In this document: positions 12,864 to 19,077 of the stretch, in pieces
Position numbering within the stretch: position 1 is the first letter of the stretch
Layout: each line of letters opens with the position of its first letter
NCBI RefSeq assembly: GCF_900114435.1
Contig: NZ_FOZK01000001.1
Span: 1,521,854 to 1,585,853, forward strand
Length of the DNA stretch: 64,000 nt
Origin: Halomicrobium zhouii
GTDB lineage: Archaea > Halobacteriota > Halobacteria > Halobacteriales > Haloarculaceae
Direction: 5' to 3'
Made by a program: the position numbers and the translations under genes
Notes under the pieces: model-generated
The model's input: the letters and a program-made list of their open reading frames with translations, nothing else
What the model was told of the DNA's origin: nothing
Database searches by the model: none

Positions 12864-14411
12864 TCAGCGGTCAGGCCGTTCGACGCTGCCGTTCTGTGAC
12901 GAATCGATCGCTGCCACCTCGCTCGTCTCGTCCGTTTGCCCTTCACTGTCTGGCGCGTCTTCACCGTCCACCGAAACAGTCGTATCGGCTTCGCCATCGC
13001 AGATGGTGGCCTCGACGTCGAACACCCCCTCGGTGTCGGCGTCCTCGTCCGGCGTCGTGACGGGGCCGACCTCCTCCCCGTCGCGCAGTGCGGTGGTTCG
13101 TTCCACCCGGGACTCGATGGCCTCGCGTTCCACCGTCAGGTGGTCCGTCGCACCGGCGTACCGTTCCCGCGCGACGGCGAGTGCCAGGTCGTACTGGTCG
13201 CGGGCCGCCTCGAACTCTTCGATGGCCACCTCGTACTGTTCGGCCCCGACGTACCAGTCGCCGGCCCGCTTCGCCTTCGACGCGGCAGTCCGTCGGGCGG
13301 AGACGAGGCGCTCGACGACTTCTCCGAGCCGCTCGCGAAGCTGGTCCGGATCGCCTTCGAAACGCCGTTCGTCGGCGCCCCAGTCGAGTTCCAGGACGGT
13401 GCAGTAAGCCTCGAGCGCGTCGTCCCAGTGGTCGGCGGCGTCGGCCGGGTCGTCGGCGTCGGTGGCGTCCCGGTCCGCTTCGACGGCGCGTCGGAGCGGG
13501 GCCGCCGCCAGTTCCGCCGTGACGCGCTCGACCCGGTCGCGTTCCTCGTGAACCGCGTCCCTGTCCGAGACGGCCGCGGAGTCGTAGGTGAGCACTGTCT
13601 CGAGTTCCTCGCGCGCGTCGTCGAACGCGTCGTGGGCTGCCTCGAACTCGTCGTCGCGCCAGTGGGCCTCGGCGTCGTCGCTGAACCGGCGGGCGCGGCC
13701 CAGTCGCGCTTCGGCCAGCATGCTCGCGCACCGACGCTGGACCTGGTCGACGCGGGCGACCATCGCGCTCGCCGTCCACTCGCCGTCGAACCGGTTCGCC
13801 GCGCGGCGCGGTTCGTTCAGCCCGTGGTAAGCCTCCTGTGCGGCCTCGAGCGCCGCGTCGTACTCGCCGGCGTCGCAGTGACCGGTGGCCGCGACGAGTG
13901 ATCGCTGGACGTCGTCGAGCGTGTTCTCGACGTGTATCCAGGCCTGGGACGCCGCCGTGAGGTACGCCGCTGCTGCATCCAGCCCGTCGGCGCCGGCGTG
14001 GAGCGTGAGCGTGCCGCCGCTGGTCCGGGTGACGGAGAGTCGGCCCTCGCGGCGACCGGTTTCGGCGGCGACGCCGTCGACGTCGACGAGACGCACGGTG
14101 AGACACTGGTCCCCGTCCACCGACACGGCGTCGCTGTCGCCGACCAGGATCACTAGTCGACGGTCGGTGAGGACGACGATCGTTCGGTACCCCGACCCGG
14201 CGGTGAGCTGTTCGGTCCCGTCTTCGCGGTCGATCTCGACGCCACGCTTCCCGTTCGTGAGCAGGAAGACGGGAGTCTCGTCGTCTTCCAGGTACGCCCC
14301 AGCCGGACGGTCGCGGAGATATCCCGCGGAGAACAGTCCCCCCGTTCCCGTCTCCGTGAGGAGGGGGTGTGTCTCCCCTCTTTGGTTATCTACTTCGATA
14401 ACTTGACCCAT
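12864..14411 (-). CDS. PH-like domain plus helical-repeat protein
   Basis: This cytoplasmic 515-residue acidic protein has an N-terminal bacterial-PH/SHOCT-like fold (residues ~45-130: FLLTNGKRGVEI, then TIVVLTDRRLVILVG). A long helical region (160-450) follows, with TPR-like repeats such as AGEYDAALEAAQEAYHGL and AEQYEVAIEEFEAARDQYDL. The last 70 residues are a low-complexity acidic tail. Such proteins are thought to be scaffolds, but no specific role can be assigned. It converges on the small membrane-protein gene with a 16-bp gap. Confidence 0.75.
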   Translation of the reverse strand: MGQVIEVDNQRGETHPLLTETGTGGLFSAGYLRDRPAGAYLEDDETPVFLLTNGKRGVEIDREDGTEQLTAGSGYRTIVVLTDRRLVILVGDSDAVSVDGDQCLTVRLVDVDGVAAETGRREGRLSVTRTSGGTLTLHAGADGLDAAAAYLTAASQAWIHVENTLDDVQRSLVAATGHCDAGEYDAALEAAQEAYHGLNEPRRAANRFDGEWTASAMVARVDQVQRRCASMLAEARLGRARRFSDDAEAHWRDDEFEAAHDAFDDAREELETVLTYDSAAVSDRDAVHEERDRVERVTAELAAAPLRRAVEADRDATDADDPADAADHWDDALEAYCTVLELDWGADERRFEGDPDQLRERLGEVVERLVSARRTAASKAKRAGDWYVGAEQYEVAIEEFEAARDQYDLALAVARERYAGATDHLTVEREAIESRVERTTALRDGEEVGPVTTPDEDADTEGVFDVEATICDGEADTTVSVDGEDAPDSEGQTDETSEVAAIDSSQNGSVERPDR

Positions 14412-14609: not shown

Positions 14610-14789
14610 ATGGCACGAGCGACGACGGACTGTCACGCGGAGGCGCAGCCGAGACGGGACGGCGGGGCACGGACCGTCCGGATAGACGACGCGACGTTCG
14701 AGGCTCTCTCGATGACCAGTGACGCGACGTCGGAAAATCGGGCTCGGATCGTCCGGTGGCTCGGCACCTGGGCCGGCGTCGACCGCTAG
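14610..14789 (+). CDS. 59-residue small protein
   Basis: The frame reads from ATG 14610 to TAG 14789 and includes GGARTVRIDDATFEALS and a WLGTWAG segment. TTTACGGG lies about 30 bases upstream as a possible promoter. The stop shares CTAG (14786-14789) with the convergent actin-like gene, the same arrangement as at the end of nuoN. No family is recognised; the RTVRIDDATFEAL stretch resembles the first strand and helix of small ribbon-helix-helix proteins, but this is weak. Confidence 0.45.
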   Translation: MARATTDCHAEAQPRRDGGARTVRIDDATFEALSMTSDATSENRARIVRWLGTWAGVDR

Positions 14790-15907
14790 CTGTTCTCGAC
14801 GAGTCGCGTCGCGATGCGCTGGGCGCCGATAGTCGCCGCCATGTCCGGTTCGTCGGCCGCGATGGCCTCGACGTCGCGCTGGAGCTCCTCGCTGAGCCGT
14901 CGCTCGAACTCCTCGAGGATGCCCGGGATGCAGGCCATCCCGCCCGTGAGGACGATGGGTCGGTCCAGCGCGAGCTGGTAGACCTTCATGTAGTCGTTGG
15001 CGAGTTCGGGGAGGAAGGTGTTGGCCACCTCCTCGACGACGTCGTCGAGGTACTCGTCGACCGCGTCCATCACCGAGCGCTCGATGGTGAACTCGTGGGA
15101 GCCGCCGCCGGGCTGCTGGATGACGTCTGTGAACGGCTCGAAGTCGACGAAGTCGGCGTGGGCCTCCTTGTACTCCCGGGCGGTCTGGGTGTCGATGTTG
15201 ACCCGGCCCTGGGTCTCCTCCTCGACGTAGTTGGCGATGACGCGGTCGACCTCGTTGCCGGTGACGGCGCCCGTCGTGAAGGGGGAGAGCTGTTCGCCGC
15301 GGCGGTAGGCCGAGGCTTCGAGGTTCGTCGACCCGAGGTTGATGGCCACGAATATCTCGTCGATGGCCTCCAGGTCGTCGCCGAAGGCGGGGATGGCGCC
15401 ACACAGCGACTCGGGGTAGCTCTCGACGAGGCCGTTGCCGATGGAGCTGTCCTCGATGACGTAGCGGAGGTTGTCCAGCCCGCGCGGGTTGTCGATGGTC
15501 GGGATGGCGTACACGACGGCGCTGTTCTGGGGCAGCTCGTTCTCGGCGATGAGTGCCTCGAAGAACGTCTGGGTGAGGTCCGCCCGATCGGCGTCCTCCG
15601 GCAGACCCGAACGGAGCATGAACTGCACGCGGTCGGGGTACTCCGTCGCGGCTTCCTCGCCGTAGAGGACTTTCTCCTCGCCGGTGAGTGCGTCCTCGTA
15701 CGTCGCCAGACAGGTCAGTGTCCGAATGATCTCGTCGCCGGCCTCGCGGTCGGGCCGGGAGATAACCGTGCGCGTGCTCCCGAGTTTCACGCCAACTGGC
15801 ACGGCTGACTGAGGTTCGGTACTCTGGGTGCCGCCGCCGGCAGTTACCGTGCCGCCGTCCGTGTCCACACCGTCGACGTCTGCGCCTTCGTCGGCGTCCT
15901 CGCTCAT
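14786..15907 (-). CDS. Actin-superfamily ATPase (salactin/volactin-like)
   Basis: This 373-residue protein has the actin/Hsp70 nucleotide-binding pattern: GVKLGSTRTVIS (phosphate-1, residues ~39-50), VAINLGSTNLEASAY (phosphate-2, ~180) and VLTGGMACIPGILEEF (adenosine motif, ~328). Its N-terminus is an acidic, Gly/Thr-rich extension. Haloarchaeal proteins of this type (salactin in Halobacterium, volactin in Haloferax) form dynamic filaments involved in shape and segregation. It lies downstream of a FlaD/E-like gene across a repeat array and may be co-oriented with it in one unit. Assignment to the salactin clade is from memory. Confidence 0.82.
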   Translation of the reverse strand: MSEDADEGADVDGVDTDGGTVTAGGGTQSTEPQSAVPVGVKLGSTRTVISRPDREAGDEIIRTLTCLATYEDALTGEEKVLYGEEAATEYPDRVQFMLRSGLPEDADRADLTQTFFEALIAENELPQNSAVVYAIPTIDNPRGLDNLRYVIEDSSIGNGLVESYPESLCGAIPAFGDDLEAIDEIFVAINLGSTNLEASAYRRGEQLSPFTTGAVTGNEVDRVIANYVEEETQGRVNIDTQTAREYKEAHADFVDFEPFTDVIQQPGGGSHEFTIERSVMDAVDEYLDDVVEEVANTFLPELANDYMKVYQLALDRPIVLTGGMACIPGILEEFERRLSEELQRDVEAIAADEPDMAATIGAQRIATRLVENS

Positions 15908-16328: not shown

Positions 16329-16811
16329 CTACACCATGGCGTTCAGCTTCGCGATGTACACCAGGCTGAGCATGTGGTCGTCGACGCCCAGGTCGTTGCC
16401 GTCGTTGGAGCCTGCTTCGTCGATCCCACGCAGGTACTCGGCCAGGTCGGACTGGACCTCCTCGGTGATCCAGTCGGTCGACTCGTAGTAGTCCAGCGCG
16501 TCGCTGGCGCCCTGGTAGCCCGAGTGCATCAGCAGGAACTCGAGCCACTCGAAGACGACGAACTCGGCGGCGTACTTCTGCGGGAGGCTCCGGAGGTAGG
16601 GCTTGTCGGCCTCGTCGTCGAGGAACGGGAGGAGTTCGCGGTACAGCCCGGCGCGGAAGGAACTCCCCGCCGCGACGTCCTCCTCGCCCTCGAAGGCGAC
16701 GTCGAGGTCAGCCGGGTCGGCTTCCTCGCCCTCGCCGAGGCCGTTCGGACGCTGCTGTCTGGCCATCTTCCGCAGCTCGTCGAGGTCGTAGTCCCGCGGG
16801 TTGATCGTCAT
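16329..16811 (-). CDS. FlaD/FlaE-domain (archaellum accessory) protein
   Basis: This 160-residue protein has a C-terminal FlaD/E domain: LRSLPQKYAAEFVVFEWLEF, then YQGASDALDYYESTDWI and LAEYLRGI (residues ~70-130). In archaea this domain occurs in the cytoplasmic ArlD/E proteins that link the archaellum motor to chemotaxis signals. The N-terminal half is an acidic linker beginning with a basic helix (LDELRKMARQQRPNG). It is divergent from parA and upstream of the actin-like gene, not in an arl operon, so it may be a specialised paralogue. Confidence 0.8.
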   Translation of the reverse strand: MTINPRDYDLDELRKMARQQRPNGLGEGEEADPADLDVAFEGEEDVAAGSSFRAGLYRELLPFLDDEADKPYLRSLPQKYAAEFVVFEWLEFLLMHSGYQGASDALDYYESTDWITEEVQSDLAEYLRGIDEAGSNDGNDLGVDDHMLSLVYIAKLNAMV

Positions 16812-16945: not shown

Positions 16946-16955
16946 CTTTATAATC
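16946..16955 (+). promoter_or_regulatory. TATA box of the parA-cheW unit
   Basis: CTTTATAATC lies about 35 bases before the parA ATG at 16986, giving a very short or absent leader. Confidence 0.6.
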
Positions 16956-16985: not shown

Positions 16986-17888
16986 ATGAGTAGGCAAACT
17001 GCGGCCGGCCCTGCGCGCCTGTGCGTGACCAACGCCAAGGGTGGGACCGGCAAGACGACGGTGGCTATCAACGTCGCCGGGGCGCTCAACGAGCGCGGCC
17101 GAGACGTCCTCTTCGTCGATCTGGACCCGCAGGGCAACGCGACGGAGGGGCTGGGATTGACCGAGGCCTACGACGCGGCGCCGCCGACCCTCTTCGACGC
17201 GCTGACCCGGGCCGACCGCCGGTCGGTTGTCTCGGACCTGATCGTCGAGCACCCGGAGATGGACGTCCTGCCGAGCAACATCGACATGCTCCAGGCCGAA
17301 CACGAACTGACCATCGCCGACCTCATCGCGCGAGCCAAGGGGGGGCAGACGGGGCTCGACCCCGACGCCCTGGCCTCGCTGGCCATCAACGTCACGCCGG
17401 ACGCCGTCGAGGGCCCCCACGCCCTGGACCTGTTCGCGAAGACCATCGCGCACGTCGAGGACGACTACGACTACGTCGTCGTCGACTCGCCGCCGTTCTA
17501 CGGCAAACTGACGGACGCGGGCATCTTCGCCACCCAGCACATCGTCGTGCCGGCGCTGACCGAGGCCACCTCCGAGCGGGCCATCGAGTTACTCATCGAC
17601 CAGATGGCCGCCCTCGAAGGGCAGGCCGACATCACGGTCGACACCCTCGGCGTCGTCGCCAACCGAGTCGAGAAGACCAACGAGGACCTGACCATGATCG
17701 AGTGGCTCGAGGAGGTGTTCACGGACTTCCCGGTGTGGCAGGTCCGCAAACGCGTCGCACTCCAGCGGGCGTTCTCGGCCGGCCAGTCCATCTTCGCGTA
17801 CGACGCGTCGGTGGACATGGCGGACGTCTTCCTGGAGATCGCGGCGTCGCTCGACGACCGATTCGGCTACGAGAACGTTCCAGCATGA
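16986..17888 (+). CDS. parA: ParA/MinD-family ATPase
   Basis: This 300-residue ATPase has a deviant Walker A, TNAKGGTGKTTVAINVA (residues ~14-30) with the signature lysine, Walker A' VDLDPQGNATEG, and Walker B YVVVDSPPFYGKL. ParA proteins bind DNA or membrane and position plasmids, chromosomes or protein arrays by an ATPase gradient. Upstream in-frame sequence to 16374 is antisense to the FlaD/E gene, so 16986 is the start. The CheW-like gene follows after 10 bp, pointing to a role in placing a chemosensory array rather than DNA. Confidence 0.92.
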   Translation: MSRQTAAGPARLCVTNAKGGTGKTTVAINVAGALNERGRDVLFVDLDPQGNATEGLGLTEAYDAAPPTLFDALTRADRRSVVSDLIVEHPEMDVLPSNIDMLQAEHELTIADLIARAKGGQTGLDPDALASLAINVTPDAVEGPHALDLFAKTIAHVEDDYDYVVVDSPPFYGKLTDAGIFATQHIVVPALTEATSERAIELLIDQMAALEGQADITVDTLGVVANRVEKTNEDLTMIEWLEEVFTDFPVWQVRKRVALQRAFSAGQSIFAYDASVDMADVFLEIAASLDDRFGYENVPA

Positions 17889-17898
17889 CAGTGATACA

Positions 17899-19077
17899 AT
17901 GACCGACGAGACGGACGAACGGATGGACCGGGCCGCACGCATCCGCCAGATGCGCGAGGGCCAGCGAGCGAATCGTGACGACGACGCGACGGACGCCGAC
18001 GGCGACGGCGCCGACGATGCCAGTCCCTCCGGCGACCAGGGTGGGACCCCCGACGACGCAGACGGGTCCGTCGACCAGCGCGTCGCCACTAACGACACCG
18101 GGAGTAGCGCCGGTAGCGCCGACGCACCCGCCGACGTCGACGCACCCGCCGACGCCGACGCACTCGCCGACGCCGATGCACCCGCCGACGCCGATGCACC
18201 CGCCGACGCCGATGCACCCGCCGACGCCGATGCACCCGCCGACGCCGATGCACCCGCTGACACCGACACATCCGCCGACGCCGACGCTCCGGACAGCGAC
18301 GACGACCCGGGCGGGAACGGGAGCGCCGACGAGGACGCCGCCGCCGCGGCCGCCCAGCGCGCAGCGCAGGCCGCCGCACAGATCACCGGTAGTGAGCCTG
18401 TCGACGCACCGGCTGCCGGAGGTGGCGCGGCCGCCCAGGAGTCGTCGGTCGAAGCGGACGCCGCTGACGGTGCGGTGGCCGCCCAGGTTCAGCAGGGGCC
18501 GACCGGCGTCGAACTGCCCGACGAGGCCTCGATCCAGTCCGCCATCGCCGACGAGGTGCTGGACCCCGAGGACGGCGGACCCGCGACGCCGGCGACCCGG
18601 CGTGGCGCCGACGCTGCGAACGCGGCGGTGGCCGAGGACAGCGTCCGCGTGCTCGAGTTCACACTCGGTGACGAGCACTACTGCCTCGACATCGCCCACG
18701 TCGAGGAGATCGTCAAGCGCGAGACGATCACGCGCGTGCCCAACACGCCGGAGTACGTGGAGGGGGTCGTCGACCTCAGAGGCCAGATCACGACCATTCT
18801 GGACCCGAAGCTACTGCTCGACATCGACCAGGAGGGGTCGGAGTCGCTGCTGGTCGTCTTCGCGCCCGACGAGTTCGAGGACCAGGGGGCCATCGGCTGG
18901 GTCGTCGACGAGGTCCGCCAGGTCGCCCCCATCGTGAAATCGGAGGTCAGCGCCGCGCCGGTCGACGCCGACTACATCGAGGGCGTCATCGACCGCGACG
19001 ACGAGGACGAGTTCGTCATCTGGACGGACCCGGAGGTCGCCATCGAACTCGCGACGGGCGAACACAGCGACGACTGA
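17899..19077 (+). CDS. cheW: CheW-domain protein with long Asp/Ala repeat linker
   Basis: This 392-residue protein has three parts. The N-terminus (~10-28) is a basic helix with repeated arginines (MDRAARIRQMREGQRANR). Residues ~60-235 are a disordered linker with ADADAP repeats. Residues ~245-390 form a CheW domain (VLEFTLGDEHYCLDIAHVEE, then EGVVDLRGQITTILD). Ordinary CheW is about 150 residues. CheW couples receptors to the CheA kinase. Placement after parA and an Arg-rich N-terminus resemble bacterial ParP, which links a ParA-like protein to chemosensory arrays. Confidence 0.88.
   Translation: MTDETDERMDRAARIRQMREGQRANRDDDATDADGDGADDASPSGDQGGTPDDADGSVDQRVATNDTGSSAGSADAPADVDAPADADALADADAPADADAPADADAPADADAPADADAPADTDTSADADAPDSDDDPGGNGSADEDAAAAAAQRAAQAAAQITGSEPVDAPAAGGGAAAQESSVEADAADGAVAAQVQQGPTGVELPDEASIQSAIADEVLDPEDGGPATPATRRGADAANAAVAEDSVRVLEFTLGDEHYCLDIAHVEEIVKRETITRVPNTPEYVEGVVDLRGQITTILDPKLLLDIDQEGSESLLVVFAPDEFEDQGAIGWVVDEVRQVAPIVKSEVSAAPVDADYIEGVIDRDDEDEFVIWTDPEVAIELATGEHSDD
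18121..18290 (+). repeat. 18-bp coding minisatellite in the CheW linker
   Basis: Units close to GACGCCGATGCACCCGCC are repeated about nine times and encode the hexapeptide DADAPA. The central copies are identical, a sign of recent slippage expansion. Confidence 0.85.

Follow-up and report, generated by a model that had tools for sequence, protein, structure and literature searches.

A ParA–CheW gene pair of haloarchaea as a candidate module for positioning chemosensory arrays

Vibrio ParP consists of an N-terminal ParA-contacting part, a linker, and a CheW-like domain, a layout that can position chemosensory arrays (PMC5706961). Positively charged N-termini of partner proteins activate ParA/MinD ATPases, and both TlpT and McdB carry such N-termini (PMC7993993, PMC10241942). 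Among haloarchaea, Haloferax volcanii positions its arrays with MinD2 and MinD4 (PMC11588486), and Halobacterium salinarum has CheW2, which binds receptors dynamically, does not bind CheA, and has been proposed to compete with CheW1 (PMC3579733). A search of the open-licence literature returned no description of such a ParA/CheW pair.

Such a pair occurs in the window, the 64,000-nucleotide stretch of Halomicrobium zhouii DNA that was analysed. The two genes are translationally coupled and conserved across the family. The first encodes a ParA of the Soj type, and the second a partner in which an invariant arginine-rich tail and a disordered acidic linker precede a complete CheW domain. From sequence comparison, we consider it likely that the pair is a ParA cargo-positioning module, the cargo being the chemosensory array and the adaptor being the CheW protein, whose tail would activate the ATPase.

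Anatomy and conservation of the ParA–CheW pair

A ParA gene, a 10-bp gap, and a CheW gene had been read from the window in the earlier note, and this reading was confirmed by the ORFs, which lie on the same strand, and by Pfam matches of the two products (AAA_31, 3.6e-32; PF01584, 7.8e-24, 84.3 bits against a cut-off of 23.5, profile positions 2–132 of 138).

Table 1. Features of the parA–cheW locus and its upstream neighbours (window coordinates)
Feature	Position	Strand	Description and evidence
Salactin (actin homolog)	14786..15907	-	PF25229, 621 bits; two genes upstream of parA
ArlD-type archaellum protein (PF04659), divergent from parA	16329..16811	-	160 aa; Pfam, family synteny
TATA-like box TTTATAAT	16947..16954	+	32 bp before parA start
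parA	16986..17888	+	ATG start, 300 aa; ParA ATPase, Soj-like; ORF, Pfam, motif, and structure evidence
cheW adaptor gene	17899..19077	+	ATG start, 392 aa; acidic linker between an N-terminal tail and a C-terminal CheW domain
Conserved tail DERMDRAARIRQMREGQR	17914..17967	+	Codons 6–23; proposed ParA-binding and ATPase-activating peptide; six positions invariant in 84/84, predicted helix
Hypervariable acidic disordered linker	17968..18636	+	Ortholog comparison, AlphaFold2
18-bp tandem repeat in linker	18117..18287	+	9.5 copies; encodes Ala-Pro-Ala-Asp-type repeat
CheW domain	18637..19074	+	Pfam match, residues 251–380

The window ParA has the features of the ParA/Soj branch, namely a deviant Walker A motif with the signature lysine (KGGTGKTT, signature Lys18; K18 and K23 are invariant), a Walker A' motif (DxDPxGNATEG), and a Walker B motif (YVVVDSPP). 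Its structural model (pLDDT 87) is closest in fold to Soj/ParA proteins (6iub, 8jmj, and 8ray; TM 0.76 by query), 8jmj being a Soj–DNA–Spo0J complex. An identity as MinD was rejected, as the protein scores 63.6 bits against a cut-off of 201.75 in the curated archaeal MinD model minD_arch. The segment VRKRVxLQRA (residues 253–262), which corresponds to the ParA region that contacts DNA, is invariant, also in the plasmid relatives, and the invariant basic residues in this putative contact region are R254, K255, R256, and R261. Caulobacter ParA binds DNA through R224 (PMC7229837); in the window ParA, the register of the canonical DNA-binding arginine seems to fall on Ala258. Because an alanine occupies this classic arginine register, non-specific DNA binding is a prediction only, despite the invariant basic stretch. 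A TATA-like box lies at about the same distance upstream of parA in nearly all orthologs. Matches from a sigma-70 promoter scan were set aside as not meaningful in archaea.

The CheW partner has an N-terminal extension rich in positive charge and separate from the cargo part; its N-terminus is MTDETDERMDRAARIRQMREGQRA, and residues 1–23 are MTDETDERMDRAARIRQMREGQR. The arginine-rich N-terminal helix described in the earlier note was recovered by AlphaFold2 with 24 orthologs (residues 3–20, pLDDT about 80–88). Across 84 distinct orthologous CheW proteins the tail follows the consensus D[ED]R-M-D-R-A-x-R-I-R-x-M-R-E-G-x-R, and six of its positions (R, R, A, R, R, and G; core RMxRAxRIRxMREG) are invariant in all 84. 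The pattern R-I-R-x-M-R-E-G occurs a single time in the whole genome in a DNA-level search, at the window tail. This helix is the only part of the partner model relied on, because the full-length model is poor (mean pLDDT 54), with residues 27–245 mostly below pLDDT 50 and forming a low-confidence linker to about residue 245.

In the 84 partners the linker is 30% Asp/Glu and 3% Lys/Arg, and the columns following the tail mostly have entropies of 2.5–3.0 bits, as against the invariant positions of the tail itself. The long repetitive linker noted earlier is present, and the 18-bp array accounts for its repeats; as a special feature it was rejected, being an expansion inside a linker whose length ranges between 69 and 274 aa among relatives. 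The Pfam search returned no domain in the partner besides CheW. This domain is 51% identical to CheW1 of the che cluster, which begins directly with its domain (MSGTKGQVLEF), and 45% identical to the third CheW of the genome.

Conservation was surveyed in 109 genomes of the same family (completeness at least 90%). A ParA ortholog is present in 70 and CheW domains in 89, and no genome with the ParA has fewer than three CheW matches. ParA occurs in 70 of the 89 genomes with CheW and in 0 of the 20 without (Fisher 2e-11, a p value that kinship makes optimistic), leaving 19 chemotactic family members that lack the pair. By a scan of named genera, the pair occurs in Haloarcula, Halomicrobium, Halosimplex, Halapricum, Halorhabdus, Halovenus, Halorientalis, and Salinibaculum. 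Every one of the 29 sampled Haloarcula genomes (genus code g6) contains the locus. The survey of gene order in haloarchaea that the earlier note had proposed gave a uniform result: cheW lies directly behind parA in 58 of 58 re-read family loci, and a CheW gene is directly downstream of every full-length ParA match in the family. The two frames overlap by 4 bp (ATGA) in 78 of 84 distinct orthologous pairs and by 8 bp in 4, the 10-bp gap being confined to H. zhouii and its 98%-identical relative. The arrangement is far above chance, since the pair occurs in every re-read locus and the tail in every partner, whereas RAxR[ILV] occurs in a mean of 0.29 of 84 composition-shuffled tails. In Haloarcula rara SHR3 the CheW partner is apparently frameshifted, with the tail and the CheW domain in different frames, through either sequencing error or decay.

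Plasmid relatives and a second pair in Natrialbaceae

Among the ParAs compared, the nearest relatives of that of the window are haloarchaeal plasmid partition ParAs. ParAs 39–65% identical to it are common in other haloarchaea, many of them on plasmids, and the bacterial ParAs found reach about 31% identity. The gene following a plasmid-type ParA overlaps it by 4 bp in most cases and encodes a short protein in which a linker joins a tail (e.g., SRADRLRRRR) to a C-terminal stretch of the type YMYLP..EKNRHFFPLVV..GL, which matched no Pfam family among the partners tested. RAxR[ILV] is found within the first 60 residues in 20 of 24 plasmid partners, versus 0.15 expected from shuffles. Plasmid pairs, such as those on Halobacterium salinarum NC_010367 and Haloarcula marismortui NC_006391, usually resemble the CheW-type pair in coupling, tail, and linker, and differ from it in that their partners end in this unnamed domain rather than in CheW. 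In Halococcus thailandensis, a ParA 65% identical to that of the window is coupled to a partner that joins a tail like that of the chemotaxis pair (DRMGRADRIRNTREGRR, also given as DDRMGRADRIRNTREGRRD) to a plasmid-type C-terminus, which argues that the tail is tied to the ParA and that the C-terminus depends on the cargo. Because the window ParA is joined to a CheW protein bearing an arginine-rich tail common to the plasmid partner proteins, the pair probably positions arrays. On small contigs, two Haloarcula-group genomes (L056 and L057) carry an additional ParA pair with 48% identity and plasmid-type partners.

A sample of 392 genomes from the order yielded 27 close homologs of a second type of CheW partner, every one in a single family (f7), which the named loci identify as Natrialbaceae. 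The pair is present in 27 of 27 loci with ParA upstream and overlapping by 4 bp, and every partner has a tail of the type RAxR[IL][RK]xxRxR and a linker of 187–264 aa. In Natrarchaeobius, ParA is followed by the tail–linker–CheW protein (tail MTDDRAKRLRNLRNR; PF01584 at 1.3e-22), an MCP, and CheW1, with cheY, cheB, and cheA divergent; cheA and cheB accompany the pair at each of the eight loci for which wide flanks were read. A third arrangement occurs in a Haloferacaceae MAG (L145), in which three copies of the tail are followed by a CheW domain at the end. An uncultured relative (L144) has a partner with several Arg-tail copies that is interrupted by the contig end. In one genome of the Natrialbaceae group (L216), another ParA (36% identity) is coupled near cheA and cheB to a linker–CheW protein without the RAxR tail.

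CheW relatives from two families whose che clusters lack ParA (f12 and f17) have neither tail nor long linker. This observation bears on a different role for the partner, that of a second signalling CheW tuning the recruitment of CheA by receptors, with ParA setting its level or occupancy and not array position. The receptor-binding competitor proposed in H. salinarum CheW2, which does not bind CheA (PMC3579733), offers a precedent, and the H. zhouii genome carries two other CheW proteins. We regard this role as unlikely, since it leaves unexplained the conserved coupling to ParA and the recurrence of the tail on plasmid partition partners, besides the tailless CheWs of the ParA-less families.

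In an unrooted ParA tree without Vibrio ParC, the two CheW-type groups stand apart (support for the main Haloarculaceae clade, 92/76), and the window ParA clusters with haloarchaeal plasmid ParAs. An AU test on ParA rejected a common origin for all CheW-type pairs (p=7e-7, with long branches present). In the CheW-domain tree, the Haloarculaceae partners form the sister group of CheW1, and those of Natrialbaceae fall with the CheWs of f12 and f17; a single clade of the two large partner groups was likewise rejected (AU test, p=4e-4, with long branches present). Similar ParA/CheW pairs thus seem to have arisen separately at least twice. We infer an exchange of cargo, in which CheW replaced the cargo domain of a plasmid partition partner and the pair was thereby redirected to arrays. 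As the trees are unrooted, the direction of this exchange, from plasmid to chromosome, is conjectural.

These results also bear on the earlier suggestion that the pair is an archaeal counterpart of ParC/ParP, which stands as an analogy of partner layout and gene order but is not supported as homology. A true ParC/ParP ortholog, received from bacteria and tethering arrays to the pole, would account for the equal gene order and partner layout, and for the location of the Natrialbaceae pair with cheA and cheB. It is nevertheless very improbable: the closest ParAs are haloarchaeal plasmid ones in a comparison without ParC, and two separate origins lie within haloarchaea. Homology is also unsupported because the pair (contig C1) and the che/arl cluster (contig C2) are on different contigs and because no LID-type extra domain was seen in CheA in a domain search without a LID model. 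In that search the 670-aa CheA was assigned Hpt, P2, dimerization, ATPase, and CheW domains, and the interval between P2 and the dimerization domain held no large unassigned segment.

Genomic neighbourhood of the pair

A short ArlD/E-type gene is divergent upstream of parA in 48 of 58 family loci. Since the sole other PF04659 protein of the genome is ArlCE (FlaC plus FlaD/E domains), in the arl cluster, the 160-aa gene is the ArlD candidate by exclusion. The probable ArlD gene lies apart from the arl cluster and adjoins parA–cheW in most genera of Haloarculaceae. FlaD of Halobacterium is a binding partner of a CheF protein, and cells in which FlaD is deleted are hardly motile (PMC2666748). Gene order suggests that array positioning may be tied to the archaellum motor.

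The gene order is salactin–arlD–parA–cheW in 36 of the 58 re-read family loci. For Halobacterium, poor synteny around salactin and the absence of a motility phenotype have been reported, and a role in DNA partitioning when phosphate is low has been connected with the protein (PMC10746226). We treat it as a conserved and frequent neighbour in Haloarculaceae, and as a candidate member of the unit without claiming membership. Behind salactin, a 515-aa protein (12864–14411) is conserved in many family members (31–51% identity) and has no match in Pfam or NCBIfam.

With salactin nearby and a ParA group that is largely devoted to plasmid partition, ParA and CheW might instead serve DNA segregation, the arrays or receptors anchoring a replicon, perhaps together with salactin, which influences how DNA is distributed. 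This is very doubtful, as no DNA-binding domain was recognised in the partner, CheW holds the cargo position, presence of the pair tracks chemotaxis genes, and the salactin neighbourhood is not universal. Least credible of all is a chance neighbourhood of two merely co-transcribed genes, given frames that overlap in 82 of 84 pairs, an invariant tail, and separate recurrence in another family.

The H. zhouii genome also encodes a 443-aa MinD/ParA-type protein (L242:1256-2587; G000:C2:1067270) that is possibly MinD4-like by its length; if so, MinD-type and ParA–CheW systems coexist in this genome.

Proposed mechanism and comparison with known systems

The idea at the core of the earlier note, array placing by a ParA and a CheW adaptor, is strongly supported by comparative genomics. 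In the proposed positioning mechanism, an ATP-bound ParA dimer would bind the nucleoid non-specifically, and the CheW domain of the partner would enter receptor arrays, replacing CheW1 or beside it. The tail, extended on its linker, would touch the ParA dimer and bring about ATP hydrolysis and release. The array would then move on the ParA ratchet or be held by it, and arrays would therefore be spaced or inherited. The earlier note suggested polar placement; with a ParA that resembles Soj and not MinD, transport on the nucleoid in the manner of PpfA would be no less likely than a polar cap. The pair is no general requirement for placing arrays, since it is missing from the 19 chemotactic family members and Haloferax volcanii uses MinD2/MinD4.

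We lean, by a modest degree, towards a broader account in which haloarchaea at least twice made a plasmid-partition ParA and the activating tail of its partner into an array-positioning machine by putting CheW in place of the cargo domain. This would be a case of convergence with ParC/ParP and PpfA/TlpT of bacteria, and in Haloarculaceae the divergent arlD gene would connect the machine to the archaellum motor as well. Within the accessible literature, archaeal array placement is otherwise known only from Haloferax MinD2/MinD4; two further haloarchaeal families, with genera such as Haloarcula, would gain a dedicated ParA with a linked CheW adaptor. The cargo adaptor would be a swappable tail–linker–cargo module, and the idea of modular adaptors for ParA systems becomes testable by domain exchange.

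The Haloferax system resembles the window pair in that a ParA/MinD-family protein controls the position of CheW arrays in a haloarchaeon. It is of the MinD type with no dedicated CheW partner reported, whereas the window ParA is not a MinD and has a CheW partner. Halobacterium CheW2, compared by its description, is likewise an additional haloarchaeal CheW, with no ParA partner or tail reported, unlike the window partner.

PpfA/TlpT of Rhodobacter sphaeroides shares with the window pair a ParA-like ATPase, a chemotaxis cargo, and a positively charged partner N-terminus (PMC7993993), and its nucleoid-based model fits a Soj-like ParA. The partner in that system is a cytoplasmic receptor; that of the window is a CheW protein with a CheW domain only. 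Vibrio ParC/ParP and the window pair both consist of a ParA-type gene beside one for a partner with an N-terminal part, a long linker, and a CheW-like C-terminal domain. The two differ in that the window ParA is related to haloarchaeal plasmid ParAs (in the tree without ParC), the linker is acidic instead of proline-rich, and the N-terminal part is a short arginine-rich helical tail. Vibrio CheA has a LID domain, whereas a LID-type extra domain was not seen in H. zhouii CheA in the search without a LID model. The Vibrio pair is encoded in the che operon and the Haloarculaceae pair away from the che cluster; the Natrialbaceae pair lies by cheA and cheB. By analogy, the pair probably works like ParC/ParP or PpfA/TlpT, and it is probably convergent with ParC/ParP.
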